A stretch of DNA of 64,000 nt from Fulvia fulva. Taxonomy: Eukaryota; Ascomycota; Dothideomycetes; Mycosphaerellales; Mycosphaerellaceae. Below the pieces are notes generated by a model. It saw only the letters and a list, made by a program, of their open reading frames with translations, was not told where the DNA came from and did not search any database. Numbering within the stretch: position 1 is the stretch's first letter; the number at the start of each line of letters is the position of its first letter. The translations under genes were made by a program, and so were the position numbers. The stretch covers positions 2,170,001-2,234,000 of the forward strand of contig NC_063023.1 in the NCBI RefSeq assembly GCF_020509005.1, read 5' to 3'. Below are positions 14,472-39,561 of the stretch, in pieces.

Positions 14472-14762
14472 ATGAAGTTGTATCACTACTCGGCTTGCGG
14501 CCGATATGATTTAGGATCTGCCCAGTCCAGCAGTATGACATGGAAGCTGATGGAAGAACAGCGTTTGTATGCAAACAGTGGGAGCTGAGCTGGAGCGGCT
14601 TCTTGCAGCTTTGGCTGTCAGAGCTTCTCTCCAGTCCTGATACCTCTGGCACAACCTCTCAACCTCTCAATCCTTTCTTCTGTAGAACTCTTGACCTTCC
14701 CACGCCTAAATCACAGCCCATCGACAGTACCCAGATCAAGTCACACAAATCGCTCCATCATC

Positions 14763-19191: not shown

Positions 19192-19509
19192 GTCGGAGCA
19201 CCTAGAATATGGTCTAATGACTGGCGAACCAATGTGCGAGCCCGATTGAGGTTGCTGAGCAGGCTGTCCGGAATCATCTGCGCTTTCACATGTCAGATTC
19301 CTCCCAGCAATGATTGCAGTATGTACGAGGCTCGACATTTCCCTGACGTGGGAATACAGAGAGCAAGATGAATGTTTCCTTCTGACTCCATGGCGTTCCA
19401 ATTCCAGGTTGTGAATGTGTCGTTTGCTGTGTCATATGTCGTATTTTTCGTGGTCCGTGCGACTAGCGCGGCGCTTTGTCTGCTTTGTGCGTAATCTCAA
19501 ATTCGAATC
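19192..19509. other. Short intergenic region
   Basis: No feature is recognised between the Hsp70-like gene and the unrecognised gene. Confidence 0.4.
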
Positions 19510-21405
19510 ATGCAAAGCAACAGAACTTCAACTGCATCAACCAACGCGCTTATCCCTCATTGCACACAATTACCATACGCCAGAGGCACCGAAAAGTTTG
19601 GAACTCCAGGCCACACGACTCGCGACATGGATCCTCTCAACTGTGAGTTCATGGTCGCCGTACTCACTCGGATCGACGCAGAGTTAGGAGTGCACAACAC
19701 CGCCGCCGAGCAGCAACAGTTCTTCGAGAACTTACTCGCCTCCCAACCACTGTACTTCAGCACTGTCAAGGCAGTCTCAGCTCGAGGCCCCAATGACATG
19801 AAGTTGCTCGATGCAGACAGCTGCCTGGCAAAGCCCAAGCGCTTGATACGGGACAGGATGGAAGCCGGAAACTATGCCACCCGTATAGCACGTGTTTTCG
19901 CCGAAGGTAGCGCGTGTTTTCCACTAACATTCTTAACCGCAATCGAATATACTAGGAACGCAGAGGAGTCGTCCTCGGCTTAGGGCCGACTCGCGCATCC
20001 TACCGTCGAGGACATAACTCCTAAGTCGGCGGCCGGTATCGACGAGGTAGTGTCTAGTAATAAGAGCGATAATAAAGTCTCCGAGAATCAGTCCGACTAG
20101 GATAACACCTATGTAGAGGGTGTGCGGCCAAGTCGGAAGCGGAAGGAAGGTCCTACTACTAACGAGAAGACTACGAACAAGAAGTAGAAGACTACTGATC
20201 ATCTAAGGAAGAGACCGCACCCGAGCAACTTTCCGCTAATAACCGAGGAGACATCTACCGTAAATGCCTAGGTTGCTTAAGCAATTAGTATAAGCGGTGA
20301 CGCACTACCTACTAAGAAGCGCAAGAGACCTCATCAAGATAGAGATAACTTATAGCCGCCGGGTAGTCGTAAGAGCCCGAAGCTTTCTATACCCTCGTTA
20401 CCCCGACTAAGTACTATAGTATCGTCGTTAGGCACGAGATTTAGTAAGGATTCTTTATAAACCTAGACGAAGACGCCCTCGACACACGATATAACATCGA
20501 AACTAATAAACGACGCTATCGACCTAATCTCCGAAGGCGTAAGAGACGATCTCGCCCCGCGTATTACTAATAGAACAACGGCGGAAGGTGTAGAACAAGG
20601 GTAGCAAACGCCGTATACGAACGAGACCTAAAAGACATCTACTACTACGGCCTAAAACTATTAAGCTCGGCAGGGGTCAACTTCAAACTCGGAGCCGAAT
20701 CGAACAACGGCTTCCGAAGATACAGCTCGATTAGTAAGCTAGCGGGAAGAGATATTCCCTAGAGAAGTCAATACGGACGCCGCGGAGAACTTAAGACTGT
20801 CTAAAGAAGATTATTAGCCCGCTAATTCCGCTCTAAAGCTACCTATGTTCAATCCTAGCAAGGTCCTAGGTATACCGGGCGAGGATATACGGACAATATA
20901 TACGGTTCTGAACAGGGCGATTACTAACACTATAGGCTACTTATACACTGACCTTGAGCATAAGGGACTAGGTGGACTATATATAGGATCTCCGACCAAC
21001 CTCGAGCCTAGACCTATTGCCGCGCTTCGAGAGCTATACGCGTAGATCTTCGGTTATGCCTAGGAGAAAACTCTGCCTAAACTTATAGCCACTAGTAATG
21101 TAGATATGCAGACACTACTTAAGGCTTTGATATGCGCCTTCTTAACTATTAAAGTGTTCCGTAAGAAGCTACTATAGAACTCTCCTATAGATTGTCTTAC
21201 GGACCCTAGTCTTACGCCGATAGACAAGTACTTTCGACGATACTTAGAAGCGAAGAGGGTCAAATACGAGAAGGTAGTATATATAGCTGCTTTCGACTAG
21301 ATCAAAGACGAGGAATTCTAGAACACTATAGTTATAGAAGCGGTAGAGGTACTGACAACTGAGTTCGCGTTCACCGTTATAGACCAGATTACTCTATTCC
21401 GAAAG
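19510..21405 (+). pseudogene. Unrecognised gene, copy 1: intact 5' part, RIP-mutated 3' part, truncated at the duplication junction
   Basis: The frame opens at ATG 19,510 and is clean through 19,980 (N-terminal NCEFMVAVLTRIDAELGV, ending NAEESSSA). From 19,925 on it carries dense CpA to TpA changes and TAG/TAA stops, and at 21,405 it fuses to Copia-1 sequence, losing its last 109 codons. The same frame in the other copy continues to 39,561, giving a parent product of about 740 residues. Its layout is a helical N-terminal region, a long acidic and Lys/Arg-rich disordered middle and a conserved-looking C-terminal domain. I do not recognise the family. The two basic clusters (SRKRKEG, TKKRKRP) could be nuclear localisation signals. 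Confidence 0.6.
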
Positions 21406-21984
21406 CTTTACTAAGGCCTGAAATCTATACAGATTCAGACTTTTCTAGGGATCCCTTAGACAGATCTATATCTAGGCTCCTAATCAAGATGGCTAGAGGC
21501 CTAGTAGTATAGAAATCTGCCCTCTAGAAGGAGGTAGTGCTCTCTAGTACTGAGGCAGAATATGTGGCCCTTACTGAATGCTATAGAGAAGTAATGTGGA
21601 TAAGGAACCTCCTGTAGGAGACTTAAAAGATGATAGGATAGAAAGCATCCCTATCTAAAATCTTTGTGGACAACTAGTTAGCTATTAAGCTTATAAGGGA
21701 TCACTCTAACCACAAAAGGACAAAGCATGTCAGGCTCAGGAATCACTTCTGCAGATAGATTCATAAGTAAGGTGTTATTGTGGTTGAAAATATCCTAACA
21801 ACCCTTCGGCTAGCAGACTGGCTTATAAAGCCAAAGTCCCTAAACCACATTCTCTAAGAAGGCATTCACACTAAGGCATAATCTCATTTGTTACTAGATA
21901 CTATAGGAAATTTCATTTGTTCAAAGCACATTCATTTGTATTAACTTTTAGAGCTATCTACTTATTATTAGGGACCTATCAGGG
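21406..21984 (+). mobile_element. Copia-1 3' fragment, part 1 (duplicated, RIP-mutated)
   Basis: This is the duplicated copy of 11,665-12,243 (RNase H end and downstream region). It carries extra TG to TA and CA to TA changes relative to 11,665-12,243 and ends at the insertion site of the gag-only element (target AGGG). Confidence 0.9.
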
Positions 21985-22313
21985 TGTTAGGAACCGCTGT
22001 ACGTTATCCCAACCGGGCTTGGATCTTTGCAATGATGTCTCTGACTCGTTGAGAAGGTAGTGGTCCCAAACAGTATATGGTGTATACTTGAAATGAGTTG
22101 AGCACGAGGCTCCTATCTACTTGCAAAAGAGCGTCGTCTATATAGTGCCGTGTCTTGGCGTAACTGATCAAACTGATCAGACTGATCACTGAGCATACTG
22201 ATCAGACTGAGCGCTCAGTTGCCAAGGTCTCTGAGCTGATCAGTTTCGGATTCTCCCACTAGTGTCTAGGCATCGATTGGTTGGCTGGAGCTTCCCCAAA
22301 CCGATCCGTAACA
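21985..22313 (-). repeat. 3' LTR of the gag-only element
   Basis: It is 329 bp and contains a cluster of CTGATCA palindromes (about 22,162-22,252). It lies next to the polypurine tract, so it is the 3' LTR in element orientation. Confidence 0.9.
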
Positions 22314-22393
22314 CCATCCCCCTTCTAGCTTAGTTCCGTCCCGGAACTTCTCACATAAGCCCGCTGTTCTTCATCGTTTGCCTGGGCATCGCA

Positions 22394-22984
22394 ATGTCTC
22401 CTCCTTCCATTTCTTCCAAAAGTTCCCTCCGTCGACAAGCCCTTGCTGTCGACATACAACGATCCGGTATCGAGATGGCCCCCTGCCATCACTGTCGGTC
22501 CGCTCGAGTCGCTGCCACCGAGCAGCGCCCAAAATGTGTCGTTTCGCCCCGGTCGGGAAAATGCTCGGAGTGTGTGAGGAAGGGTTACTCTGATCGCGAC
22601 GTGACCTTATCCGCACCCGAGTGGACGAAGTTTCGCGACGTTCGTGATGGCCTCCAGCGAGACCTCGAGCGTGCGGAGGAGAAGGAGGTGGAGCTTCTCC
22701 ATCAGCAGGCCGAGCTCGCTCAGCGCATTATTCGCCAAAAGGCGAAGAAGATCCGTCTTCGCAAACAGCTTCGCCTCGCGTCCGGCAAGGCCGACGACGC
22801 CGTAGCGAAGGAGCTCGAAGATCTCGAGGCGGCGGAGGAGGAAGAAGTGGAGGAGTCTGCTGGGGTGGAGACCGCGTCGTCGTACAAGGAATTCGATCCT
22901 TGGCAGATGTCGGTCCAGGATTGGAACCAGCTGTGCGATCCTTCTTTTCCTTGGGTCGTGCCTCCTCTGGCCTCATCGTCGTAA
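22394..22984 (+). CDS. Zn-cluster-like, coiled-coil protein encoded antisense in the gag-only element
   Basis: ATG at 22,394 opens a 196-codon frame running opposite to gag. Residues 31-60 hold a Cys motif, C31-x2-C34-x13-C48-x8-C57-x2-C60, resembling a Zn2Cys6 (Gal4-type) cluster that lacks the sixth Cys. Residues about 75-150 form a long charged coiled coil (LERAEEKEVELLHQQAELAQ), followed by an acidic run and a Trp-rich tail. A possible 58-nt intron (22,981-23,038, GTAAGT...CTAG) would replace the stop and add SNQEAAV. From memory, similar small Cys plus coiled-coil proteins are common as unnamed proteins in fungal genomes near gypsy-type elements; I cannot verify this here. The frame is open and RIP-free in an element under little apparent decay, which suggests it is real. 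Its function is unknown. Confidence 0.6.
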   Translation: MSPPSISSKSSLRRQALAVDIQRSGIEMAPCHHCRSARVAATEQRPKCVVSPRSGKCSECVRKGYSDRDVTLSAPEWTKFRDVRDGLQRDLERAEEKEVELLHQQAELAQRIIRQKAKKIRLRKQLRLASGKADDAVAKELEDLEAAEEEEVEESAGVETASSYKEFDPWQMSVQDWNQLCDPSFPWVVPPLASSS

Positions 22985-23091
22985 GTTATTGTTCCAGTAG
23001 TCTTTTATCCGTTGCTGTTGTTGACTTCTGTGTCCTAGGTCATCAAATCAAGAAGCCGCTGTTTGATGCCTTTGTCGTCAGGTCGTTTCTG

Positions 23092-24087
23092 CTAGGCAGA
23101 TTTCGAGAAGAAATCCTCGCATTCCTGGTACGTCTTTGTCGCTGTCGCCCGATCCATCGCATTGAACTCGCGGCTGACAACATTCTTCTTTGGACAGTCT
23201 CTAGCATAGTGGCCTTTCTTTCCACATGCATAGCAAGTTAGATCTCTTGTTAACTGCTTGCTTCGTCCGCGCCTTTCCGTGGCGTCGAGTTCCATTGGAT
23301 CTCCATAATCAGGGTCGTGACTTCTGGCCTTGAAGCCCCCTCTTCCGCCTCTCGCGGGTCTCTGGAATCCAGGCTGTACGAATCGGTCGTACTTCAATTC
23401 CTGGAGTCTCTCGTCGATTTCCTTTGCAGCCTTGACCATCGCGGCCAAGCTGGTGAGACTGGAGTTTCGAGATAATTCGGCTTTGACGTTGTCCTTCAAG
23501 CCTAGGTAGAACTGGGAACGAAACGCTGCGTCGTTCCACTCGAGGTCGGCGGCATATCCTTGGAATTCAGAAGCATAGACGGCAACTGAGGTGTTCTGTC
23601 GGAGTTGTCGGATATGTCGGTCGGCATGAACCTCTTCATTAGGTATCCCGTAGAGATCATTCAGTTTGATCTCGAACTCATCGTAGTCGGCAAATATCTT
23701 CCGGGTTTCTGTCTTCGGGTTGTCTCCTTCGTCCTGGTTGTTGAGCCAGTCTTTGAGGTATGGTCTGAACCCCCGGGCTGCCCTGCCCCTTAGGAAGGAT
23801 GCGGCGTACAAGACCTTAGAGGCCTCGCCATTAAACTGTTGGGCGTTGAAGTAGAGGTACAGCTGAACCTGCAGCTGAAAAGCCTCCAGCTTCCCTTGTG
23901 TCCCATCGAACGTCTCCGGTGGTGACACCTTAGGTGCCTTGGTGTACTCGTGCATGCTGTTCGAGCTTGCAGAGGGTGTTGATCGTTTTCCGCTTCCAGT
24001 AATCGACATTTCGCTCATTCGTTCCGTGATGCCAGTTGACTGTGGCTGTTGTCGTGACGGACTCCGGGTAGCGTCTCTCCCAGACAT
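23092..24087 (-). CDS. gag: Ty3/gypsy-type Gag
   Basis: The 331-residue ORF starts at ATG 24,087, 33 bp inside the 5' LTR (an upstream TTG is also in frame). It has a retrotransposon_gag capsid region (FDGTQGKLEAFQLQVQLYL ... VHADRHIRQLRQNTSVAVYA ... FYLGLKDNVKAELS), an Arg/Gly-rich segment and a canonical CCHC zinc knuckle CYACGKKGHYARDC at about 285-298. It ends in its own TAG/TAA-bounded frame, with no protease fused. It would form virus-like particles and package element RNA. The enzymes would have to come from an autonomous relative. Confidence 0.9.
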   Translation of the reverse strand: MSGRDATRSPSRQQPQSTGITERMSEMSITGSGKRSTPSASSNSMHEYTKAPKVSPPETFDGTQGKLEAFQLQVQLYLYFNAQQFNGEASKVLYAASFLRGRAARGFRPYLKDWLNNQDEGDNPKTETRKIFADYDEFEIKLNDLYGIPNEEVHADRHIRQLRQNTSVAVYASEFQGYAADLEWNDAAFRSQFYLGLKDNVKAELSRNSSLTSLAAMVKAAKEIDERLQELKYDRFVQPGFQRPARGGRGGFKARSHDPDYGDPMELDATERRGRSKQLTRDLTCYACGKKGHYARDCPKKNVVSREFNAMDRATATKTYQECEDFFSKSA

Positions 24088-24119
24088 GTGCAAAGGGCCC
24101 TGGTGGTGGTGCTCAAAGT

Positions 24120-24448
24120 TGTTAGGAACCGCTGTACGTTATCCCAACCGGGCTTGGATCTTTGCAATGATGTCTCTGACTCGTTGAGAAGGTAGTGGTC
24201 CCAAACAGTATATGGTGTATACTTGAAATGAGTTGAGCACGAGGCTCCTATCTACTTGCAAAAGAGCGTCGTCTATATAGTGCCGTGTCTTGGCGTAACT
24301 GATCAAACTGATCAGACTGATCACTGAGCATACTGATCAGACTGAGCGCTCAGTTGCCAAGGTCTCTGAGCTGATCAGTTTCGGATTCTCCCACTAGTGT
24401 CTAGGCATCGATTGGTTGGCTGGAGCTTCCCCAAACCGATCCGTAACA
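24120..24448 (-). repeat. 5' LTR of the gag-only element
   Basis: It is 329 bp, identical by eye to 21,985-22,313. It lies upstream of gag on the minus strand. Confidence 0.9.
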
Positions 24449-24795
24449 AGGGTCATAACATAGCTGCCTTTCAAAGCAAGCCATTTCATAACAAAAGAGG
24501 AAAGATGAAGCTTAATAAGCTCAGAAGTAGGGCTATACAGGCATTCTAGCACCTGATAATTGTGATAACTAGAGCAGTTTAGCATATACTAACATGTATA
24601 AAACAGCTGAAGTGATGCACATCTAAAGGATATAGGAGTTGCCTGTACCTACTAGGTCTATAGGGTCATCCTAGCAGACAATCTGCTAGCCTAAAAGGGG
24701 AGTGTTATGAATTAGGTGACTTAGGTACTATATTAGTCAGGACTTGGCACACATACCCTATATTAGCAATATCTGTAGCCACTATAGATACATCT
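24449..24795 (+). mobile_element. Copia-1 3' fragment, part 2 (RIP-mutated), with start of its 3' LTR
   Basis: This continues the duplicated Copia-1 sequence after the AGGG target duplication. The RIP-mutated LTR begins at 24,703 and is interrupted at 24,795 by Copia-2 within CATCT. Confidence 0.9.
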
Positions 24796-25030
24796 TGTTA
24801 AGATGTAGCATCTCAAAGGGAGTCAACAATCAGGAAGTGATCTGGCAGCCTGAGGCATCCACAATGACTCAGCTTGTAGGGAGATACCTTCTCTCCCCTT
24901 TAGCTTAGATAGACATCTAACACAATCAACATATTGGTTCCTGATATATTGCTGCATGCTCGTGCTATTAGTCAGTTGAAGAATGATCTCTTACTCCACT
25001 CCGCTGCCATCCACCCGTACCTGTTCAACA
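24796..25030 (+). repeat. 5' LTR of Copia-2
   Basis: It is 235 bp, identical by eye to the 3' LTR. Confidence 0.95.
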
Positions 25031-25045
25031 GGTTATGAGCCCGGG
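25031..25045 (+). promoter_or_regulatory. Primer-binding site of Copia-2 (initiator tRNA-Met, half-tRNA type)
   Basis: GGTTATGAGCCCGGG directly abuts the LTR and is complementary to the anticodon arm of tRNA-iMet, exactly as in Copia-1, although the two LTRs are unrelated. Confidence 0.75.
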
Positions 25046-25478
25046 TTTGTGCAGGAATAAGAGCAACCTATATCAGTACAGGTTACTTGTATCCCTTGCT
25101 ATCGTAGCAGAAAACATCTGGGAATCAGAAGTCTACCCCGTCTATCCTATCAAGGAGCTTAGTTCGATACTAAGTGATAGGTAACCCAGACAAGGACTCT
25201 GTGCGGCTTACTCAAAGCCAATACCTTGAAGATACTCTGTAGGCAGAACTGCATCGAGATACTATCAAGAAGGACTTCAAGTAAGTCATTTGAAGCTCTG
25301 CTAGGAGAGACAGACCTGTGTCCTAGCCCCGAGACCTCACACCGCTCCTTCTTTACTTTACCAAGCAGGCCTTGGTATCCACACCTACGAACTTTCCCAT
25401 TCTACACCAGAAGCCTCAGCAGGATCTGAGCCACCACCTTGGAACATACACACCTTGTTTCATTACATCCAATTTATT

Positions 25479-28400
25479 ATGGATTCATACCAAGAGAAGA
25501 CAGAGGAGAAGGGAGGCAAAATCCCAATTCTTGGGAGGGACAATTGGAAGAGATGGTTCAACCTTCAGAGATACAAGATGGAGAGCCAATCAGCATTCTT
25601 TGCAATTGATGACCTAATGGAAGTGTCTTTTGACAACATCAAGGGCAAGACTCTGAAACTCCAAGAAGAGGCTACAACCAAAGAGATCCTCAATACGCCA
25701 ACATGGACAAGACACAATGCAGTATGCAACTTCAGTATCCTTAGTAGGATCACAGAAGAAGATGAATTTGAGCTTGAGGGCTCATGTGAATCTGGAAGAG
25801 CTGCTGAGAAGTGGGTGTATCTCTGGAACAAGTATAGCCAGGTGCTACCAACCCATGCACATGAGCTCACAAAGCAATTTGTGACCTTTGAGATGAGTGA
25901 AGAGTTCACCATCAGATCTGCATGGACACACCTGGTTTCTCTTGGAAAAAGGATTGCTGATGTTGACCCAGAGGGTCAGCATTACAGGAAAGCTGATGTG
26001 AGGATGACCCAGCTCTTAAGCTCACTGCCACCTGACTACCATGTAGCCAGGGATACTATCATGGCTCAGCCAAAGATGGATCATGAAAGGACCTTAAAGA
26101 TCCTTGAAGCTCAAGAAGCCAGGTTGGATCCCTCTAAGGCTGAGTATGGCATGGCAGCCACCTGGGTCAAGCCCTCAGGTCTAGCAAGACCACTCTCCTG
26201 CCTTCTCTGTGAGAAGGATCATCTGATCAAGGACTGCCCTAGTTTGCCTGAGGCAAGAAAGGTCCTTAGATCTCATTCCCAACCACCATCTTCCCAGAAT
26301 ACAACACATGTCAAGAAGAAGAGAACTCCACCACCCACTTCAAGGAGGACACCAAGAGAGAAGTCCTCTATGGAAGAACTTAAGAAAATGGTGAAGAAAC
26401 TCAGCTCTGACATGCTGTCACTCCAGAAGAACCAGGCCCAGTCTTATACCTCTAAAGCAAAGAAGACTGGAAAAGGTTTCTCCGCCCAAGAGTCACCATG
26501 CAGCTCATCCCCAGAGACAATGTCTGATGATGATGAGTATGATGAAGTGGCTCACTCAACTGCAGAAGTCCAAGGCAAGTTCCCCTCGTCAGAGTGGTTA
26601 CTTGACTCCTGTGCTTCATCCCATATGACTGACCAAAGCTGCCTCTTTAGATCTATGACTCCCTTGACAAGGAAGAAATGGATCAAAGTGGGAGGTGGGT
26701 TTTTATTGGCCACTCATATTGGGAATGCAGAGATGAGTGGGAGAGCTGGCAGAAAAGTTGTTTTGGAAGATGTCCTGCTTGTACCCAAGCTAGGAGTGAA
26801 CCTGGTTTCATGGAACCAGTTTAGCAAGCAGTTTGGTGTGCAACCTCCATCATTTTCTCTTGTTTCCCCCTCTGGTGAGACTGTTGTCCAGACAAAGCTC
26901 CTTGGGGGGGTTCCATTCATTGATGAGATTTCTCCTCTCCTACAAGAACGGGCACATTACTCATCATGTGCACCACCAATGGAGAATGCCTTTGTGACTG
27001 CTCAATCAGAGACCGACCTGAAGCAGTGGGAGCTTTGGCATAGAAGATTTGCACACTTTGGGAAGAATTTGCTCCAGAATCTTCACAAGGTAACAGACTT
27101 GAAAGAACCCATTCCTATCCCTAAGGATGGCTTTCACCAGTGCAGAGTATGCTCAATAGCAAAGATGAAGAAGTACAAAGGCAAAGTTACAGAGAGAAGA
27201 CCTGAAAGACTTGCCCTTGTATCTATTGACATATGTGGCCCACTACCAATCTCAAGACTAGGATTCAAATACTGGCTTGAGATTGTTGACAACTTCTCTA
27301 GGAAGAAGTGGACCTTTCCTCTTAGGAAAAGAGAAGATGCTCCAGTTGCTCTCCAGAACTGGAAGATCAAAGCAGAGAGGAAATCATCAGCGCAGCTGAA
27401 AGCAGTAAGACTTGACAATGCAAAAGAACTTATTGCATTAGTGAAGCAGTGGGAGAAGGATTTGGGGATTGGGCTCGAGCCGACTGAGGCATACAACTCT
27501 CTACAGAATGGACCAGTTGAGAGGTCAATACAAACCTCAGAGGACTCTATAAGGGCAATGCTTGAAGAGGCTAAAATGCCGGTTGAATTTTGGCCTGAAG
27601 CACTAGAGGCCCAAACTTATATGAGGAACAAACTGCCAAATGGCCCAGATTACGATGGGTTCAAGGTTTCACCAGATGAGGCTTTTGATGGTATCAAACC
27701 GACCATCAACCATTTGAAAGTTTGGGGATGCAAAGCTGTTGTCTATATGGACACAAGATCCCAACCTCAATGGGCAAGAAGTGACAAGCTAATGAATAGG
27801 GGTAAAGAAGCAGTGTTTATTGGGTATGTTGAAAACACAGCTAAAGCCTGGCTCTTTTGGGAACCAGACATGAGAGCTGTTAAACAACACACACATGCAG
27901 ACTTCTTTGAGGACCAGCCTGGAGGTGATATGGGTCTCAATGTTCCAACATTGAATCTACCAAGCAGTGCACCAGCTAGGAAGCCCTTAGGAAGGCCGAG
28001 GAAGAACGTATCCTTAGGACAATCTACCCACCATTCAGGCGTCCATCAGAGCCCCCCCGAAATAGATCAGCCAATTGAGAGCCCTAAAGTCGCTCAGCCG
28101 AGAAAGCTGTTTGTGCAACTTCCCCAGCCTCCGGAGAACGTAGGGGAATTTCAGAAAATCGATCAGCCAATTGAGAGAAGCTCCCTAGATCCCCAGGAAA
28201 TAGACGTTACTAGGTCACAAGTGACGGTCCCTAAATCATCCCTTGGAAAGAGAAAGGCTGACTATGATGTTGAGGGCTATGACATGAAACAGAAAGCCCC
28301 AAGATCCATGGTCCCTAAGCCCGAACTAACCACTGAAGTGGGAGAAGCAATGGACCTCTCAGAGAACCTTGCTGCTTTTCACCAAGCTTTCTTTGCAGCC

Positions 28401-30110
28401 ATGCAATCAGTGGACAGTTCAATACCATGGGATAGCGAATTCCTGGAAGAAGTTGAGGAAATGGCCTTTGCAGCAACTGTAGAAGCCATTGCATACAAGC
28501 AAGAGGTCCCAATTCCAAAATCCTACAAGGATGCTGTGAATGACAAGAAATGGGGACATCTTTGGAAGGAAGCAATCCAAAAGGAACTAGATGCTCTACA
28601 GAGTAACAACACCTGGGAAAATTCTGTTCCACCAAAAGGAGCAAATCTGGTTACATCAAGATGGGTCTTTGATATTAAGAGAAGCATTAGTGGAGCTATT
28701 GAAAAGTTCAAGGCTAGACTAGTTGCAAGGGGCTTCTCACAGAAGTTTGGTGTTGACTTTATGGAGACATTTGCACCTACAGTAAGACAGGACACCCTTA
28801 GGGTGTTTATGGCTATTGTGTGTAAGAAGGATCTTCATCTTCACCAAGTGGATGTGAACAATGCATTCACAGAAAGCACCCTCCATGAAGACATCTTCAT
28901 GTTACCACCACCAGGAGTTGAGCTTCCACCAAACATGGTGTTCAAAATCCTCAAAAGCTTGTATGGACTTAAGCAAGCAGCTAGAGATTGGAATCAACTC
29001 TGTGTGTCAAAGCTCAGAGAGATTGGATTCACACAGTCAGAAGTGGATCCATGCCTACTTATCCATAAGAAGAGGGAGATCATAATCCTTATACATGTGG
29101 ATGACATTCCAATTGCTGCACCAAAGTTGACAGATGTTCTCTGGTTCAAAAGAGAACTTGGCAAGATCTTCAAGATCAAAGATCTAGGTGAACCTGAAAA
29201 GATCCTTGGCATGAGAGTCACAAGGGACAGGAAGAGAGGAATCCTGAAACTTGACCAAGGACACTTTGTTAGGGACAGCCTAGCCAAGATGGGAATGAAC
29301 CATGAGAAGGCAGCACCTACACACTCACCCATGGACAGCTATGAGGCCCTCAAACCTTCAAGCCACATGGATGAGAGGTGTGACAAGGCAGAGTACCAGA
29401 GTATTAATGGTACTTGGATGTGGCCAGCAACAATCACAAGGCCAGACATTGCTTTTGCCCTAGGAAGGATGAGCTCATTTGTGAGTGACCCATCCACCTA
29501 CCACATGAAGGCTTTGAAGAAGATCACTAGGTACCTAAGATCATACCCTGATCTAGGACTTCAGTTCTCAAAGTCTGGAAAAGGACACCTTATTGGATAC
29601 TGTGATTCTGATTATGCAATGGACAAAGCAGACAGAGTCTCAATCCTTGGGTATGTCTTCTTCCTCTGTGGGGCACCAGTTTCTTGGATGAGCAAGAAGC
29701 AAAAGTCTGTAGCAACATCCACAATGGAGGCTGAATACATGGCTATGAATGCATGTGCGAAGCAGTCCCAATTCCTAGCTTCACTGCTGAGGGAAATGGA
29801 TTGTCCAGAGTTAGTGGGAGACTGTTCCCATCAACCAAGAATCACTGGAAACCAGGAGACTGTATCAAATTTGAGACCAGTCCAATTAAGAGGTGACAAT
29901 CAAGCTGCCCTCACCCTAGTGAAAGATGCACATGTTCATGACAAGTCGAAGCACATTGACATTGCCTATAACGCTGTTAGGAAACTTTGGTGGAGGAGGC
30001 TTATTGCTGTTGAGTACACCCCAACCTCTGAGATGGTTGCAGACGGGTTTACAAAACCAAAGACTGGTCCACACTTCCAGAGGTTTGTAAGCCAGCTGAA
30101 CCTGTCATAA
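25479..30110 (+). CDS. Copia-2 Gag-Pol polyprotein
   Basis: The uninterrupted ORF has 1,543 residues from the first ATG (25,479); upstream in-frame codons start with TTG only. Domain order: Gag with LLSSLPPDYHVARDTIM; zinc knuckle CLLCEKDHLIKDC near 241-253 (CX2CX3HX4C, one residue shorter than usual); aspartic protease WLLDSCASSHMTDQ near 373-386; GAG-pre-integrase LWHRRFAHFGKN with a CRVC zinc pair; integrase core with SIDICGP, RLDNAKE and NGPVERS; reverse transcriptase with HVDD near 1,206; RNase H with GYCDSDYAMDKADR and TMEAEYMAM. The order protease-integrase-RT-RNase H is that of copia. Gag and Pol are in one frame, with no recoding site seen. All catalytic motifs are present. Confidence 0.95.
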   Translation: MDSYQEKTEEKGGKIPILGRDNWKRWFNLQRYKMESQSAFFAIDDLMEVSFDNIKGKTLKLQEEATTKEILNTPTWTRHNAVCNFSILSRITEEDEFELEGSCESGRAAEKWVYLWNKYSQVLPTHAHELTKQFVTFEMSEEFTIRSAWTHLVSLGKRIADVDPEGQHYRKADVRMTQLLSSLPPDYHVARDTIMAQPKMDHERTLKILEAQEARLDPSKAEYGMAATWVKPSGLARPLSCLLCEKDHLIKDCPSLPEARKVLRSHSQPPSSQNTTHVKKKRTPPPTSRRTPREKSSMEELKKMVKKLSSDMLSLQKNQAQSYTSKAKKTGKGFSAQESPCSSSPETMSDDDEYDEVAHSTAEVQGKFPSSEWLLDSCASSHMTDQSCLFRSMTPLTRKKWIKVGGGFLLATHIGNAEMSGRAGRKVVLEDVLLVPKLGVNLVSWNQFSKQFGVQPPSFSLVSPSGETVVQTKLLGGVPFIDEISPLLQERAHYSSCAPPMENAFVTAQSETDLKQWELWHRRFAHFGKNLLQNLHKVTDLKEPIPIPKDGFHQCRVCSIAKMKKYKGKVTERRPERLALVSIDICGPLPISRLGFKYWLEIVDNFSRKKWTFPLRKREDAPVALQNWKIKAERKSSAQLKAVRLDNAKELIALVKQWEKDLGIGLEPTEAYNSLQNGPVERSIQTSEDSIRAMLEEAKMPVEFWPEALEAQTYMRNKLPNGPDYDGFKVSPDEAFDGIKPTINHLKVWGCKAVVYMDTRSQPQWARSDKLMNRGKEAVFIGYVENTAKAWLFWEPDMRAVKQHTHADFFEDQPGGDMGLNVPTLNLPSSAPARKPLGRPRKNVSLGQSTHHSGVHQSPPEIDQPIESPKVAQPRKLFVQLPQPPENVGEFQKIDQPIERSSLDPQEIDVTRSQVTVPKSSLGKRKADYDVEGYDMKQKAPRSMVPKPELTTEVGEAMDLSENLAAFHQAFFAAMQSVDSSIPWDSEFLEEVEEMAFAATVEAIAYKQEVPIPKSYKDAVNDKKWGHLWKEAIQKELDALQSNNTWENSVPPKGANLVTSRWVFDIKRSISGAIEKFKARLVARGFSQKFGVDFMETFAPTVRQDTLRVFMAIVCKKDLHLHQVDVNNAFTESTLHEDIFMLPPPGVELPPNMVFKILKSLYGLKQAARDWNQLCVSKLREIGFTQSEVDPCLLIHKKREIIILIHVDDIPIAAPKLTDVLWFKRELGKIFKIKDLGEPEKILGMRVTRDRKRGILKLDQGHFVRDSLAKMGMNHEKAAPTHSPMDSYEALKPSSHMDERCDKAEYQSINGTWMWPATITRPDIAFALGRMSSFVSDPSTYHMKALKKITRYLRSYPDLGLQFSKSGKGHLIGYCDSDYAMDKADRVSILGYVFFLCGAPVSWMSKKQKSVATSTMEAEYMAMNACAKQSQFLASLLREMDCPELVGDCSHQPRITGNQETVSNLRPVQLRGDNQAALTLVKDAHVHDKSKHIDIAYNAVRKLWWRRLIAVEYTPTSEMVADGFTKPKTGPHFQRFVSQLNLS

Positions 30111-30162
30111 AAAGGTCCAAGTACTATTGACAGGAAGTGAGCAGACTGTAACCTCCCATACG

Positions 30163-30175
30163 AGATGAGTGGGAG
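30163..30175 (+). promoter_or_regulatory. Polypurine tract of Copia-2
   Basis: GATGAGTGGGAG-type purine run immediately before the 3' LTR. Confidence 0.6.
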
Positions 30176-30410
30176 TGTTAAGATGTAGCATCTCAAAGGG
30201 AGTCAACAATCAGGAAGTGATCTGGCAGCCTGAGGCATCCACAATGACTCAGCTTGTAGGGAGATACCTTCTCTCCCCTTTAGCTTAGATAGACATCTAA
30301 CACAATCAACATATTGGTTCCTGATATATTGCTGCATGCTCGTGCTATTAGTCAGTTGAAGAATGATCTCTTACTCCACTCCGCTGCCATCCACCCGTAC
30401 CTGTTCAACA
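30176..30410 (+). repeat. 3' LTR of Copia-2
   Basis: It is 235 bp and is followed by target duplication CATCT. Confidence 0.95.
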
Positions 30411-30415
30411 CATCT

Positions 30416-30497
30416 TATGCAATTTAGAAGGTATCTGATCACCCTTATTGTTTTATGGTTCAGCAAGCTTGTATACTCGTTAATCACCCCTACAATA
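30416..30497 (+). repeat. Remainder of the RIP-mutated Copia-1 3' LTR copy
   Basis: It corresponds to 12,587-12,668 and resumes after the Copia-2 target duplication. The copied CGTAG follows at 30,498. Confidence 0.9.
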
Positions 30498-30866
30498 CGT
30501 AGCTTACTATATTAGCGTAGGATGGCTTGTTCGCTTTCTACCGTTCGTCGTTCTACTTATATATCGATGCTACAACTTTTCAAGGCCTGATCTATAGTAC
30601 GTACTATAGAGGTAGCATAACTTGTGCGTTTCTATACGATACGGGCATCGGGATCCCTAATTCGCAAAATCTTCTATACAGAGGTACATAAGGATAGCCA
30701 CTCGTAACAATGCGGTATATTGCCGAGAGTTCTACGGCAATGTTGCTATTTGAAGTTGATCTGCCCGTAGACAATGTTCTTAGAGCGCGACTCTTCTTTC
30801 TAAGCGTAGGTAAAGACGTCGTCTCGACATCTTGAATTCGGACTAGCGTACTAAGTGCGTGCTATT

Positions 30867-32300
30867 ATGTTTAGCGCTTTGGTCGCGTTCTTTATTATCG
30901 CAAGATACACTACGCTTGACGTACGCTATAGTTCTCGAGATCATTATAGCATTAAGCGAGATGTCTACGTAGTCGGAGGTAGATCGAGCGGTATATATAC
31001 TGCTATTCGTCTGTAGTAGATAGGCTATAGCGTTGTCCTGATCGAAAGAGAAGCTCGACTTAGAGGTAGATTTTGTTCTAGTAAAGTCTTTGGGCAATAT
31101 ATATGCTGACTAGAAGCGTTAGTAGGTCACGTAAACATATATCGCGATCTAGTCACGAATACGACTACGGATTATAGCGTCCAAATCTTCTCGAATCGGA
31201 CAGTCCTCCGTAACTTCTTTAAGCATTTCGAGATACCCTTAGTCAAGCTCCCTTAGGGCTTAGGCATGCCTAAAACTACTAACTTTCGTACCGTAGAACT
31301 AGTGAAGGCTTCGGACCTCTCGGCGGAACAGCTCGCGTAGGCTTTACTCGTATATAATGCTTAGCTCGTAAAGTACCTAGGCCTAGTAGATAGATTCATC
31401 TTACCTTCTCCGGTACCCGAGGATCTCCTTCTAGATTTTAGTGATTTCTTGCAGAAATATGATCTAGAAGTCTTGGCTAACCTGTTCTTCGCCTATAATT
31501 AAGGAGCTAGAAACATACTAGCGTAACCTACTCTATATATAATGAAGTACTTTGATTATATCTAAGTGCAAGACATTTCCTAGTCGGCCTTCGTCATAAA
31601 TAGTCTGTCTGACAACTAGCTGCTCTATAATCGTATATAGAAGGAGCCTAGTAAGAACGTCTTGCTAGACACTAATATCCTTAAGATCAGACGTAGCCGG
31701 AAGGGTTATGTTGTTCGTGTTATAACACTAGGTGGCCCAAAGACTATTTACGCGAAGAAGTTACTACTAGCGATCCTACTAACGGTATCAAATCTAAAGT
31801 TTCTAGATCTCGATCTAGCGGAAACGATTGTGTTTTCTAAGCTTAACGGCAGCTTATACTAGGACGCTATAGTACAAGACATTAGCATACCTAACACCTA
31901 GACAGTACGGAACATCGACCTAGAGGCTGCTCTCGACGTCCTAGCTTTACCTACGCTATATAGCTTGTCGAGCACGAAGTTTAACAAAACGCATTTTGCT
32001 TACTACGGAAGCCCTATAAAAGCCTCCGAAGACGAGGTCAGGTCTACTATACTTGATACACTAAGACGGCTACGTAGAGGTTCAAGCCAAGATACTAAGA
32101 TCGTTAAGCTACACGATTATACTCCATTTATACTAATAGCCCCGAAAGAAGACGTTACGGCTAGCTTCTACGATAAGATACTTGCTTTATAGGGACATAA
32201 GAATACGTAGTAGACGGGCGCTACGTAGCAATTATAGGCTACTACGTAGCTTTAGAATTACACCGAGTACAATGTTCTGCCGAGATTATTAGCTAGATAG
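30867..32300 (+). pseudogene. RIP-destroyed duplicate of the FAD oxidoreductase gene
   Basis: It corresponds base for base to 13,038-14,471 (offset 17,829, no indels). CA to TA and TG to TA changes convert many Gln and Trp codons to TAG and remove the start ATG context, so no long frame survives. Recognisable stretches such as [15 protein letters not shown] persist. Rare non-RIP differences from copy 1 include 31,092 (G against A), 32,277 (C against T) and, just past the gene, 32,322 (C against G). Confidence 0.95.
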
Positions 32301-32591
32301 ATGAAGTTGTATTACTACTCGCCTTGCGGCCGATATGATTTAGGATCTGCCTAGTCTAGTAGTATGACATAGAAGCTAATAGAAGAACAGCGTTTGTATA
32401 CAAACAGTAGGAGCTAAGCTAGAGCGGCTTCTTATAGCTTTGGCTATTAGAGCTTCTCTCTAGTCCTAATACCTCTAGCACAACCTCTCAACCTCTCAAT
32501 CCTTTCTTCTATAGAACTCTTAACCTTCCTACGCCTAAATTATAGCCTATCGACAGTACCTAGATCAAGTCACACAAATCGCTCTATTATT

Positions 32592-33458
32592 ATGACTAAG
32601 ATCAAGAACATAGCGCCCTACGACCTAGACAAGCAAGGTGAGTCTTATAATACCGCTCGTTCCCTATCTATACTAGACTGACATTTTCGAGAAGCTACAC
32701 AAGATCAGTCGTAGAAGCCGGCTAATGTCGACAGCCTTACTAGCGCCTTCGAAGTCGTCTCCCTCGGCGACATCTTTACGCCCGCTAACTCTAAGGCGGT
32801 CAGTACTATCGACGACAACGAAAGCTCTAAGATTAAGGTCGAGACCCCTAAGAAGGCCTTAAACATCTACTCCCCGCTCCGCCTACGAGGCTCTCCTATA
32901 GCTAGCGACGATAAGACTAAGGATAATACCGTCGGCGACGGTAAGCCCGTCTACGTCAAGGTCGAGAAGAGCAAGTGTGTCTACACTAAGATCGAGAAGA
33001 ACAAGCCTGTCTATACTAAGGCCGAAAACAACAAGCTAATCCCTAGTTCTCCGCCGTACTACACTCTACTAACGTCGCCTAGCGGCGTACGTCTCGCCCG
33101 TAAGATCTGTCGCTCCTACTAGACACCCGCCGTAAAGTGTATTACTAGCATCTTCAACGAGAACGGCAATGCCGGACGACCCTACTAGGCCTGCCCAAAC
33201 CGATAGTGTGAGGCCACTAAGAAGAGTGACTTCGAGAAAGGCTAGGACAGCTAGGGCGATAGCAAAGGCATTAATAACAAGAATCCTACCTACTTCTACG
33301 ACGTTCCGAGTCGTTAGGACAGAATCTATAAGGACGGAGGTAAGAAGGGATTAGGCTTCTAGACTTGTGCTGAAGGCGAGTGCGACTACTACTCTAAGGA
33401 TCTCTTTAGCGTCTTTAACGTAGAGGTCACCCGGTACTTCTGGCCCTAGTTAGTATAA
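32592..33458 (+). pseudogene. RIP-destroyed duplicate of the zf-GRF gene
   Basis: It corresponds to 14,763-15,629. Trp and Gln codons in both zinc fingers have become TAG (for example the PYWACP Trp) and several zinc Cys codons are changed (TGC to TAC). One transversion at 33,247 (A against T at 15,418) is not RIP-type. Confidence 0.95.
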
Positions 33459-34397
33459 GTGCTTTAGGACTGCGTAGGCCTACTGTTTTCAGTCGTAATG
33501 TGCTTTCGAGAAACGTATTAAAAGTCGAGATAAACATGCTCGTTAGACTATAAGGAGCGTACTCGAAGGACGGGGTTCTCGATGTCTCTATAGGAGGCAC
33601 GAAGCATCTATAGACGCGCCTATGCCTATTAGGTCGTACTACTAGGAATGAGTAGGGAGATATTATAGCAATATTAGATATTAAACGTTTTACGATCAAG
33701 CTATAATATACGATTATGCTTTCACCTGTTTATAGAAGGTACTTTATATAGTAGTATTATTGGCGAACAGCTAGTTTTGCGCCTAGGGTACTATATAGCG
33801 CTACTCGAAACACTTCATCGATATTATATAGCTGATGAGCTATTTGCGTAGCTTGCTCCTATCTTGCCGTAGTTAGAGCGGAACCGCCGCCTCGAGTAAC
33901 GCTATAGCCAATATAATACTACTGTTCGTATAAACATTATAAATATTATGTATACGGCACTACTCGACTGTACAGTCAATGAGTATCATCGCTTACCTTC
34001 ATCCCGCGAAGCGTCGTCGAGATGTGTTATAGAACATTTACGTATAAAATCGGGTAAGTGAATGTAGAGGGCTGAATTTGCCCCGCGCTAATTGATCCTA
34101 AGGCACGATTCTCCCTTAGCGCGGGTCCGAGCACTTTCTCGAAAGAGCACTAAACATTCTTTAGCAAATTGATATACACTACGTCGCCTCGACTTTATAC
34201 TCACCTAAGTATATCTACAAAACCGCGACTACGTTAACGGCCTCGTACTCCTCTATAACAACCACAACATTCCTCACCTCCTACACGTCCTCTAGATATC
34301 TTCCGCAAGTTGTTCCCTCCCGCGCCGTACCTACTCGAGATCGCGTCGCCCGGCGTACGTATATCACTACTACTGCCTTTAGGACAGGCTACCGACC

Positions 34398-37020
34398 ATA
34401 GCGTCCGTTCAGGTGATACGAGTAGTGATCGACTAGGGTACTACTTACGGTAAGGTCTATATATTCTCGGGTATCTTAGTCCGACTAGCCTTACTAACGA
34501 TACTTAGGCGGCGGTATATATCGGCGAAAAGGGGAGTTTCCTCTCGAGCCCTAGACTCGCCTACATTGTACAATTCAGCAGTCTAACAGGTATATCTAGG
34601 TCTTTCCTAATAGCGGCTAGCTACTTTAGGCCCGAAACCGAGTTTAGATAGGGATAAGACCTCGACTATAAGCTATAGAAGAACGAGCTTCCCGAGGAGA
34701 GTGCTATTAACGTCGCAAAACTGTCGCTATATCCTAACTACAAGAGCGTAGCTATCGTAAAACAAGTCGAAGAACGCCTAGAAGCTATAGGACGTACTAA
34801 GCTATAGTTCATCGCGGATCATCTCAAGGCGATATAGCCTACGATCATAGCCTATACGAAGACTTAGTTTGATAATACCGAAGAAGACTATGTCGATGGC
34901 CTAGACAAAGAGCTCTAGATAAGTGTTCCCCTGTTGTAGTACCTAAGCTCTAATAAGATTATGTCTAAAGCCGTAGAGCTAGCTTTATTACCTAGGACCG
35001 AGCTTGTGTTAGAGCTAATCGCTACGGTAGCCTACGTTCTCGATGCTATAACGGCCAATAGCTAGAACAAATCAAAGTTCGACCTTAAGCGTCTAGCGAA
35101 AGGCAAGCTTATATAGGTAGTCGACCTAGGGGGAGGGACTTGTATACGTATTAAGCGGCCTACTGTACTCCGACGTAGCACTAACAAGCATGCTAGGACA
35201 ATGTCACCTATAGGGTGTCTAAGGAGTCGGCTAACGGCGCTATAATAGGGCTCGAGGTAGTGAGTCAGCCGAGTGGTACGTCTTCGTTAGCTTACTATAT
35301 CGTCGGATACTAACGACCTCTAGGCGGGTTATACGGCTCTTACTTTATCGACCAAGAGTTCCTTAAGTGATTAGAGACATCGCCCGAAGTTGTCGGTACT
35401 AAGGGGCTCGTAAATACTATAAGGTCAATCGGGCTGAGTGTCGAGTCGTTTTCTACTAAAGCTCGGCGCGAGTTCGAGCTTACTAAGATCAAGAACGGGC
35501 GATAGTTATCATTTGAGCTGATCAGAGTGTCTACTAGTAATAGAAGACGATTCTCGGTCGATCTCCCTCTATAAGTCGCCATATCCGCACCCTTCGAATC
35601 CAGACTGACTTCTCGATAGAGATAAGATGATCGAGCTCTATAGGACTGTTATTGCTAAGGTGATCGAAGAGACGAAGAAGCAGCTTGTCCCCGGCACTAA
35701 GGTAGGCTTACATCACTATCTATAGGGACTAATATTGACAAAGAACAGGCAATCTTCCTAACGGGCCGGTTCGGCGACTCTAAACTCTTGTTCGATACAA
35801 TGTATAAAGAGTTCGGCAGCAAGGTTGTTTATAACACCGTCCGGATCAATAGAGCCTAGGTAGAAGCTGTCGTCACCGGAGCCCTAATGCGCTATACTAG
35901 TATTATCTCACGCACCCTACTAACTCGCTACACCTTCGGTATATAGCGTGTCGAGAGAGCTGACCCGAAGAAGCATCCCGACGCCTACTAATTTCTAGGT
36001 GACATCGACAAAGATAATAGGAGTAAGTATACCAAGATCTCGGAGAACTGGGCTATCGTCAAGTATAATACGTACATCGAGAAGCTTCCCGTAGTAGAGG
36101 GTCGATAGAGCTCGCTACTGAACAAAGTACTACCTTTTGTGCCGTATAAAATGATGTAGTAGCTAATATAAAGCAGGACACTGTCACCGACCAAGACCTA
36201 TACATTAGCGAGTCAACCTAGTTATAGTACATTATGCCGCTAGGTACTTCGCGGGTAATAGAGACGGTTTACTAGACCGAGGGCGATATTACCGACTATT
36301 AGCCGATCTACTCGGACGTCTAGGCTTTCGACTAGAACAATACTATTAAGAGTAACATCGAGGTCTAGGAGACTAAAACTGTGACTTTCGACCTAGCGAG
36401 ACACAACTTCAAAGTGAGCTACGACAAGGACGACCAGAAGTAGTATAAGGCCTTCGGCCGTATACGCCTTACCTCGTCTAGACCTAATACTAAGATCGAG
36501 TAGCAGTTTATGAGCCCGAGCGCTAAGCTACCTAACAGTAAGTAGCTACTATAGCTAAGACCGCTCGACTGCCGCTGACCTAATCGTAGAGCGGGGCCGC
36601 CTAAAGCAGAACTAGAAGACAATTGTGATCAAGCAAGACGAGATCATTAGCGAGCATAGCTTCGTGCTCCGCTCAGAGACTCGCAATCCGTTTCCTTACG
36701 ACGATGTCGTCTCGGGGCCGGTCCTTCCAGCCTAAGCCGTCTCGTCCGCTGCCGAATCGTAGCCTAATGCTCCGCTCGAGGAACTATCTAAAGATGTAGA
36801 GATGTCAGGTACAGTAGGTATGAGTAAGGGAATTGAAGAGGCGGTCGAGGAGGGAGTTAAAGAGATAGTCGAGGAGGTGTAGCGTCGCGTTCGTAGGCCG
36901 ACCTAACGTAGAGCAGAGATGTAAGCGGAGAGGGATAGGAGGAGAAAGAAGAACGGGACAACTCTACGTAAGCAGCACATCCTACCGGACTCGGATAGAT
37001 ATATAGACATTGATGCCTAG
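34398..37020 (+). pseudogene. RIP-destroyed duplicate of the Hsp70-like gene
   Basis: It corresponds to 16,569-19,191. The start ATG has become ATA and dozens of TAG/TAA stops cover all exons. The stop sites of copy 1 are also stops here (16,826 TGA is TAA at 34,655), so those lesions predate the duplication or were present in both parental alleles. A C/G transversion distinguishes 16,707 from 34,536. Confidence 0.95.
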
Positions 37021-37338
37021 GTCGGAGCACCTAGAATATAGTCTAATGACTGGCGAACCAATGTGCGAGCCCGATTGAGGTTGCTAAGCAGGCTGTCCGG
37101 AATCATCTACGCTTTCATATGTCAGATTCCTCCTAGTAATGATTATAGTATGTACGAGGCTCGACATTTCCCTAACGTAGGAATATAGAGAGCAAGATAA
37201 ATGTTTCCTTCTGACTCTATAGCGTTCCAATTCCAGGTTGTGAATGTGTCGTTTGCTATGTTATATATCGTATTTTTCGTAGTCCGTGCGACTAGCGCGG
37301 CGCTTTGTCTACTTTATACGTAATCTCAAATTCGAATT

Positions 37339-39561
37339 ATGTAAAGCAACAGAACTTTAACTGCATTAACCAACGCGCTTATCCCTTATTGCACACAATT
37401 ACTATACGCTAGAGGCACCGAAAAGTTTGGAACTCTAGGCTACACGACTCGCGACATAGATCCTCTTAACTGTGAGTTCATAGTCGCCGTACTCACTCGG
37501 ATCGACGCAGAGTTAGGAGTGCACAACACCGCCGCCGAGTAGCAACAGTTCTTCGAGAACTTACTCGCCTCCTAACCACTGTACTTTAGCACTGTCAAGG
37601 CAATCTCAGCTCGAGGCCCTAATAACATAAAGTTGCTCGATGCAGACAGCTGCCTAGCAAAGCCCAAGCGCTTAATACGGGACAGGATGGAAGCCGGAAA
37701 CTATACTACCCGTATAGCACGTGTTTTCGCCGAAGGTAGCGCGTGTTTTCCACCAACATTCTTGACCGCAATCGAATACACTAGGAACGCAGAGGAGTCG
37801 TCCTCGGCTCAGGGCCGACTCGCGCATCCCACCGTCGAGGACATAACTCCCAAGTCGGCGGCCGGTATCGACGAGGTGGTGTCTAGTGATGAGAGCGATG
37901 ATGAAGTCTCCGAGAATCAGTCCGACCAGGATGACACCTATGTGGAGGGTGTGCGGCCAAGTCGGAAGCGGAAGGAAGGTCCTGCTACTAACGAGAAGAC
38001 CACGAACAAGAAGCAGAAGACTACTGATCATCTAAGGAAGAGACCGTACCCGAGTAACTTTCCGCTAATAACCGAGGAGACATCTGCCGTGAATGCCTAG
38101 GTTGCTCAAGCAATTGGTATGAGCGGTGACGCACTACCTACTAAGAAGCGCAAGAGACCTCATCAAGATAGAGATGACTTACAGCCGCCGGGTAGTCGCA
38201 AGAGCCCGAAGCTTTCTGCACCCTCGTTGCCCCGACCAAGTACTACAGCATCGTCGTTAGGCACGAGATTCAGCAAGGATTCTTTACAAACCTAGACGAA
38301 GACGCCCTCGACACACGATATAACATCGAAACCAATGAACGACGCCATCGACCCAATCTCCGAAGGCGTAAGAGACGATCTCGCCCCGCGTATTGCTAAT
38401 GGAACAACGGCGGAAGGTGTAGAACAAGGGCAGCAAACGCCGCATGCGAACGAGACCCAAAAGACATCTGCCACTACGGCCCAAAACCATCAAGCTCGGC
38501 AGGGGTCAACTTCAAACTCGGAGCCGAATCGAACAACGGCTTCCGAAGATGCAGCTCGATCAGCAAGCTAGCGGGAAGAGATATTCCCTGGAGAAGTCAA
38601 CACGGACGCCGCGGAGAACTCAAGACTGTCTAAAGAAGATTATCAGCCCGCTGATTCCGCTCCAAAGCCACCTATGTTCAATCCTGGCAAGGTCCTAGGT
38701 ATACCGGGCGAGGATATGCGGACAATGTATGCGGTTCTGAACAGGGCGATCACCAACACTACAGGCTACTTGTACACTGACCTTGAGCACAAGGGACCAG
38801 GTGGACTGTACATAGGATCTCCGACCAACCTCGAGCCCAGACCCATTGCCGCGCTTCGAGAGCTGTACGCGCAGATCTTCGGTCATGCCTAGGAGAAAAC
38901 TCTGCCTGAACTCACAGCCACTGGTAATGTAGATATGCAGACACTGCTTGAGGCTTTGATATGCGCCTTCTTGACCATCAAAGTGTTCCGCAAGAAGCTG
39001 CCATGGAACTCTCCCATGGATTGTCTCACGGACCCTAGTCTTGCGCCGATGGACAAGTACTTTCGACGATGCTTAGAAGCGAAGAGGGTCAAATACGAGA
39101 AGGTAGTGCATGCAGCTGCTTTCGACCAGATCAAAGACGAGGAATTCCAGAACACCACAGTCATGGAAGCGGCAGAGGTACTGACAACTGAGTTCGCGTT
39201 CACCGTTATGGACCAGATCACTCTGTTCCGAAAGGGCCGCACTCCGACGGATGGCTGGTACCGAAGGTTTTTGGACAATCTCAAGGACGTCTTCTGGAAT
39301 GCCCTGATCATGCGCGGCCAGTTTGAGGCGTCAATGGACAACTTCATCATCCAATGGCGTTGGCCCAAGGAGCCCTTCGACATCGATACGATGACGACAC
39401 CCAGTGGTCACTACTCAAACAAGGGAGCGCCCGTTCAGTATACTATCCTTCCTGCCATTGTCCGCCACGATTATGGAAGCAAGGGTCCAGGAATCACAGC
39501 TTTCCGAGCCATGGTGAGCTTGAATTCGAAAGACATTGTAGGTATCAGCAAAAGAGGTTAG
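37339..39561 (+). pseudogene. Unrecognised gene, copy 2: RIP-mutated 5' part, clean 3' part to the natural end
   Basis: The frame corresponding to ATG 19,510 continues in one phase to TAG at 39,561 (741 codons). Up to 37,707 it is RIP-mutated, and the second codon is already TAA. From 37,754 on only four in-frame stops remain, all TAG where Gln fits: 38,098, 38,293, 38,569 and 38,890. The same four are present in copy 1 (20,269, 20,464, 20,740, 21,061). The C-terminal third (38,674-39,561) looks conserved and folded (AFTVMDQITLFRKGRTPTDG, DNFIIQWRWPKEPFDIDTM). I recognise no family. Because of the four shared stops, the gene was probably dead or truncated before the duplication. Confidence 0.6.

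Follow-up and report, generated by a model that had tools for sequence, protein, structure and literature searches.

A 64,000-nucleotide stretch of Fulvia fulva (named Cladosporium fulvum in the literature cited), hereafter the window, holds a tandem duplication in which each copy is partly clean and partly altered by repeat-induced point mutation (RIP). The window is positions 2,170,001 to 2,234,000 of contig NC_063023.1 (C12), and the genome searched comprises 67,169,167 bases in 14 contigs. It is almost certainly the Race 5 genome, reported as 14 chromosomes and 67.17 Mb (PMC9453070). Comparison of the window with itself defines unit 1 (11,665-21,405) and unit 2 (21,406-39,234), the latter split by two long terminal repeat (LTR) elements, el1 and el2 (Table 1). 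With both elements skipped, the unit 2 segments 21,406-21,985, 24,454-24,796 and 30,417-39,234 align with unit 1 without gaps over 9,741 columns and with 785 differences, so that identity is still 92% over 9,741 bp. The duplicated unit consists of the 3' end of a Copia element, 'A', together with downstream open frames. Copia 'A' has an LTR pair identical at 176/177 positions and has related copies at other genomic loci. The non-Copia part of the unit (12,669-21,405, used as the query) has two matches in the whole genome, both in the window, and with this query no third genomic copy that might have been the donor was found. At the tandem junction, J, the gene side of the unit (its end at 39,234) is fused to Copia sequence (its start at 11,665) with zero shared bases, and the duplication therefore appears to have begun with end joining.

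Table 1. Coordinates of the duplicated units, their clean and RIP-mutated parts, open frames and LTR elements (positions in the window)
Feature	Coordinates	Strand	Basis
Copia element 'A', LTRs 7,095-7,271 and 12,492-12,668; duplicated unit starts inside it	7095..12668	+	LTR pair
Unit 1 of the tandem duplication, 9,741 bp	11665..21405		self-comparison and alignment
Unit 1, clean part	11665..19878		flank-like RIP indices; 1 RIP-type change
FAD (flavin adenine dinucleotide) amine-oxidase-like frame, unit 1	13281..14471	+	Pfam PF01593
GRF-like zinc-ribbon frame, unit 1	14853..15629	+	Pfam PF23549
P0002, frame across the unit 1 switch	19627..19980	+	clean-state residues, then mutated-state residue and stop
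Unit 1, switch window, 46 bp, identical to 37,708-37,753	19879..19924		alignment gap
Unit 1, RIP-mutated part, start of the mutated block	19925..21405		109/184 sites CpA>TpA
Tandem junction J	21405..21406		no shared base at the join; read from sequence
Unit 2 of the duplication, with two LTR elements	21406..39234		self-comparison and alignment
Unit 2, RIP-mutated part, rest of the block	21406..37707		663/1,264 sites CpA>TpA
el1, gag-bearing LTR element, no RIP by index	21985..24448	-	LTRs 329/329 identical
el2, Copia-like element, no RIP by index	24796..30410	+	LTRs 235/235 identical
P0001, frame across the unit 2 switch	37687..38097	+	mutated-state residue, then clean-state residues
Unit 2, switch window	37708..37753		alignment gap
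Unit 2, clean part	37754..39234		alignment; 2 RIP-type changes
Frame crossing the right edge of the duplication	38893..39561	+	open in unit 2; cut off in unit 1

A first-pass annotation, made from the letters of the window, had described unit 1 as clean and unit 2 as mutated up to 19,878, with the roles reversed from 19,925, and the alignment bears out both halves of this description. To the left, unit 2 has 663 CpA>TpA changes and unit 1 has one; to the right, unit 1 has 109 and unit 2 has two. Such changes in the copy predicted to be mutated account for 772 of the 785 differences. The other 13 are the three RIP-type changes on the clean side, six C>T changes in other contexts (four CpG, one CpC and one CpT), one other transition and three transversions. 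The two clean-side changes of unit 2 lie at 38047 and 38055, 8 bp apart. The best single switch falls between 19,878 and 19,925 and is contradicted by 4/782 transitions, a count that rules out RIP interspersed in both copies, the pattern which the annotation had set against its own reading. The annotation had also stressed that the switch falls in the same 46-bp window of both copies. The single switch stands, but the wording about a shared column is true by construction, because a pairwise comparison places the switch in one column of both copies and is not itself informative. The informative point is that the switch is marked by neither a doubly mutated (interspersed) stretch nor a long doubly clean one. 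As a gap between differences, 46 bp is ordinary (13/784 gaps are equally long or longer), and the four CpA/TpG sites inside it are unmutated in either copy. For two independent random boundaries, the probability of lying no more than 46 bp apart is about 0.9%.

Base composition follows the same division. The composite clean sequence has a TpA/ApT ratio of 0.63, a substrate index of 1.29 and a GC content of 0.525, and the composite mutated sequence has values of 1.66, 0.58 and 0.445. By the RIPper thresholds used for Race 5 in the cited report (PMC9453070), 14 of 127 one-kb windows across the 64 kb are RIP-affected, all within the mutated block (20,001-21,500 and 30,501-37,000); outside it none passes, flanks included. 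The composite mutated unit has lost 772 of its 1,450 CpA sites (53%), with both strands hit (C-strand 427/809 sites, G-strand 345/641). Strand clustering was not clear (104 of 500 shuffles were equally extreme), and strand-blocked RIP was dropped as a mark of one or more cycles. Within the unit (11665-21405), mutation favors CCA (285/341 sites, 84%) over ACA (103/350, 29%).

For the left end of the unit, which copy changed can be judged from an outgroup. For 11,665-12,668 we used other copies of the Copia family, namely 10 of 30 loci representing about six element copies, some counted twice; we dropped matches shorter than 300 bases and also those positions at which fewer than three loci were available or the majority fell below 60%. 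Set against the Copia majority, unit 2 departs at 76 positions, and 73 of these departures are C>T or G>A. For unit 1 the number is 17. Unit 2 shares 11 of these differences, which should predate the duplication; at the remaining six, T or A stands in unit 2 and in the majority but C or G in unit 1, and we read these as family copies RIP-mutated at the same sites. For the right part of the unit, polarity rests on the RIP indices and stop codons. The Copia part is also the less mutated, at 71/184 sites (in the mutated copy, 21406-21985, 24454-24796 and 30417-30497) compared with 592/1,078 in 12,669-19,878. In pairwise comparison, single Copia copies have 29-41 RIP-type changes of their own (long matches, L006-L009). 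Copia 'A' itself, set against the majority, shows an excess of RIP-type differences from 8,345 to about 10,850 and few further right. This is a second abrupt change in RIP level near the locus, and it may reflect subfamily history.

The consequences of the switch can be seen in the open frames. Unit 1 has no stops in the FAD frame, compared with 18 in the unit 2 copy, and none in the GRF frame, compared with 9. The frame crossing the right edge is open in unit 2, and in its unit 1 copy 3 of 114 codons are stops. When the FAD frame served as a protein query, at least 198 proteins were returned from a list limited to 8,000 candidates, mostly fungal amine oxidases by name where named; the best match listed is 100% identical, in a 5,287-base contig, and is uninformative on the switch. 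Both frames are indeed open in unit 1, as the annotation said when it described them as rescued by recombination, but they were most likely never mutated in the clean allele. The frame straddling the switch is interrupted in both copies, each copy having the mutated half. That frame, a predicted open frame rather than a proven gene, has no Pfam match, and a protein search found no relative beyond the window's own proteins. With the FAD and GRF frames intact in unit 1 and the right-edge frame intact in unit 2, it is the sole casualty.

An abrupt switch of this kind could arise if an assembly error had joined two haplotypes, a case that the annotation named as one that would undo its reading. 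The Race 5 assembly reportedly rests on error-prone long reads. The two switch windows also have identical sequence, and collapsed regions are reported in three contigs (PMC9453070). The same report, however, gives a minimum overlap of 3,000 bp, and 46 bp of identity amid 8% divergence should not fool an assembler so set; it also gives about 125x coverage and only two candidate structural variants, without Illumina read support (PMC9453070). A protein search with the unit 2 switch frame returned two proteins from 36 candidates, P0001 and P0002, which are the frames across the unit 2 and unit 1 switches. Each is a single member sequence in five contigs, the longest of 2,695,860 bases. Because this contig is larger than the window's own (2,606,583 bases), and because the unit is on no other contig of the genome, another assembly must carry both junctions. 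We read the P0001 and P0002 sequences as exact in all five contigs, and our guess is that these are the five published C. fulvum isolates; five near-complete genomes are reported, four from HiFi reads (PMC10823647). No unswitched version, clean-to-clean or mutated-to-mutated, is among the two proteins from 36 candidates, in a search that admits lengths of about 96-304 aa. An assembly artefact is thus very unlikely. Mis-joined haplotypes, strongly contradicted by the second assembly and by the published assembly report, have next to no chance of being the explanation, and we set the assembly chimera aside.

The genome holds three DNA methylase genes: a BAH-bearing one with ENV (L035), which we take to be DIM-2-like, a long third one, also with ENV (L037), and a frame (L036, with L038) that has a DNA_methylase domain with PCQ and EQT triads. 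Replacement of ENV by EQT is described as a mark of the RID/Masc1 group (PMC6709928), and by its domain and triads L036 is predicted to be RID-like. These RID-like, BAH-bearing and third methylase frames, and the published figure of 39.2% of the Race 5 genome affected by RIP (PMC9453070), lead one to expect that the genome is RIP-capable. According to the sources cited, when two members of a repeat exceed about 80% identity and 400 bp, RIP is expected to mutate each of them (PMC2621366, PMC10294615). The two units, at 9,741 bp and 92% identity, exceed both thresholds. Mutation of both copies over the whole homology is nevertheless not what we see, the expected copy having 772 CpA>TpA changes and the clean side 3, and it is this near absence of RIP from the clean side that leads us to infer a later exchange.

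The clean halves and the inserted elements both give some indication of timing. Since the clean halves are susceptible to RIP by their identity to the other copy and yet are clean, the exchange should have followed the last RIP. Since they are still clean beside 92% identical partners, it seems that no RIP-competent cross has occurred since the exchange, or that RIP missed the locus. The LTR pairs of el1 and el2 are identical and neither element shows RIP by index, so both should have entered after the last RIP. El1 has a gag-like open frame on the minus strand with a zinc-knuckle motif, recognized by eye. A protein search across the el1 edge, aimed at whether the insertion is shared by other isolates, returned no hit, the window's own protein included, and is uninformative on that question. 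El2 has an open frame of 1,601 aa (25,305-30,110), and its size (about 5.6 kb, with 235-bp LTRs) resembles that of a C. fulvum Ty1/Copia element reported as 5.6 kb with 240-bp repeats (PMC10823647). Among 980 candidates for the el2 family, 40 were scored, which gives at least 40 copies of about 100% identity, and the family looks like a recent, RIP-free burst inside a heavily RIP-mutated genome.

RIP is reported to hit both members of a repeat, yet here one mutated unit lies inside a clean one, which argues for an exchange with a clean allele after RIP. RIP changes come within a dozen bases of J on either side, and so the block should have been tandem or circular when it was mutated, or else was cut from a larger mutated region. 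The best account needs a single event: either a mutated array served as template for two-ended repair or for loop conversion, or a mutated circle crossed over with the clean allele. The annotation had already proposed that recombination put a RIP-mutated unit into a clean allele; that proposal holds as the best reading, although a circle and two-ended repair are not separable with certainty. We consider it probable, by a modest degree, that one homologous exchange set one RIP-mutated unit into a clean single-copy allele with a mutated array as the donor; this would most likely have been a tandem array that lay on the homologue and had been RIP-mutated shortly before. In this sequence of events, a 9.7-kb stretch would first have been duplicated in tandem through a homology-free join, and RIP during a sexual cycle would then have mutated both copies. 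The meiosis of that cycle, or one soon after it, would have brought the mutated array together with a homologue bearing the clean, unduplicated allele, and an exchange at about 19,900 (position x) would have inserted exactly one mutated unit into it. The clean allele could have broken and each of its ends paired with a different array copy, or a one-unit loop could have been converted; the product would read clean-left, mutated block from x to x, clean-right. El1 and el2 would later have jumped into the mutated block, with no RIP at the locus since. Because RIP is reported to take place just before karyogamy (PMC10294615), a freshly mutated array could meet its partner's clean allele in the very next meiosis; conceivably, though, the exchange was parasexual rather than meiotic.

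The choice of an array over a circle leans slightly on the intensity of RIP on the two sides of x. Corrected for context, 91 changes are seen left of x where 111.6 are expected, and 109 right of x where 96.9 are expected; with flanks of 1 kb, z is about 3.6. A step at x fits two different donor copies meeting there rather than one continuous molecule. Several observations weigh against this account. The step ranks only 11th of 155 cut points, a similar step occurs at the Copia edge (about 12.7 kb), and the RIP rate along the unit is uneven beyond chance (1 in 1,000 shuffles is equally uneven). Intensity also drops across J (109/184 compared with 71/184, p about 0.0001), where an array should be continuous, a drop that follows from the under-mutated first kb of the unit (71/184). 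Without context correction, the two parts of the block show no difference (109/186 and 663/1,264, p = 0.13), nor do they when the Copia part is left out (109/184 and 592/1,078, p = 0.30), and a difference in uncorrected RIP rates was dropped as an argument. Any conversion tract at the switch is at most 46 bp, which is short beside the 539 and 432 bp reported for Zymoseptoria tritici (PMC10294615). Neither a clean unduplicated nor a fully mutated allele is among the two proteins from 36 candidates, and the cited report gives nothing to indicate that C. fulvum has an active sexual cycle (PMC3510045).

The short tract is best explained if the donor was instead a RIP-mutated circle, released from the mutated array or arisen as extrachromosomal DNA, that entered the clean allele through one crossover at x, since a single crossover yields both junctions at one point with no conversion tract. 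In a circle, however, the bases on either side of x are neighbors, and the step in corrected intensity at that point would not be expected, slight as its weight is. A circle also requires an extra step and its presence in the same nucleus as a clean chromosome, and we hold this to be a possible but unlikely course. Two crossovers in successive crosses, swapping first the left and then the right end of the array with clean chromosomes, would make each step an ordinary one, and a recombination hotspot could bring both together. Without a hotspot they would have to fall within 46 bp by the 0.9% chance given above, and the clean half acquired first should have been mutated when the second RIP-competent cross took place, which makes this improbable.

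The absence of shared bases at J, which means that end joining occurred at some time, would suit a history in which clean and mutated single-copy alleles recombined at x and the reciprocal products were joined head to tail at J. That history needs at least 9.7 kb of RIP-mutated but otherwise unrepeated sequence, with no duplication as the cause, and both reciprocal products in one nucleus; we judge it quite improbable. An account without any strand exchange is RIP in place, confined to a loop between paired homologous points, so that x to x' (the switch points of the two units) was mutated and the outer arms were spared. A loop anchored at x and x' would give the block its homologous ends, but the linker mutation described in the cited report concerns a linker of 729 bp (PMC11969663), and the edges of the block are abrupt, only one end tapering. 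We regard this as a highly improbable origin; if true, it would mean that RIP could act on pairing geometry and not on the extent of homology.

If one exchange from a mutated array is the correct explanation, the locus gives the order of events, namely duplication, RIP, exchange with a clean partner and then transposon insertions without further RIP, in a pathogen regarded as almost entirely clonal. The clean halves are still suitable targets for RIP, and for that reason the locus would also mark the most recent RIP-competent cross in the ancestry of each genome in which it is present. Recombination adjoining RIP could then leave frames intact while the duplication persists. The two-copy comparison used here is applicable to any fungal genome for finding similar switches.

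The locus resembles RIP as known from Neurospora crassa and C. fulvum in its CpA>TpA changes on both strands, long duplication, stop-broken frames and RID-like frame. It departs from it in that RIP as described mutates both copies throughout, whereas each copy here combines a mutated with a clean part, the roles being exchanged at one reciprocal switch. In Race 5 itself, the Ecp11-1 duplication is reported to combine clean tandem copies with a RIP-mutated copy bearing a transposable element; unlike the present locus, whole copies are clean or mutated there, and the relevant part of that report describes no switch within a copy (PMC9453070). Mutated beside clean repeats in one array are also reported for the 5' terminal ribosomal DNA repeat of Stagonospora nodorum, but as a difference between whole repeats that the authors ascribe to a limited range of nucleolar protection, with no reciprocal switch in the account given (PMC2621366). 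A reciprocal RIP switch of the present kind is undescribed in the titles and abstract openings among the matches listed, in a search that left out most subscription journals. One query for an earlier account yielded two papers, on general meiosis and on transgene concatenation, and another yielded none. The component processes are known, and it is their combination as a reciprocal switch that we did not find described. In ends-in integration of a plasmid, a single crossover produces a chimeric duplication. The present locus is like such an integration in having one circularly permuted unit, one exchange point and parental halves swapped between the copies, and differs from it in being natural, in its RIP-marked donor, and in that this donor may have been either a circle or an array.

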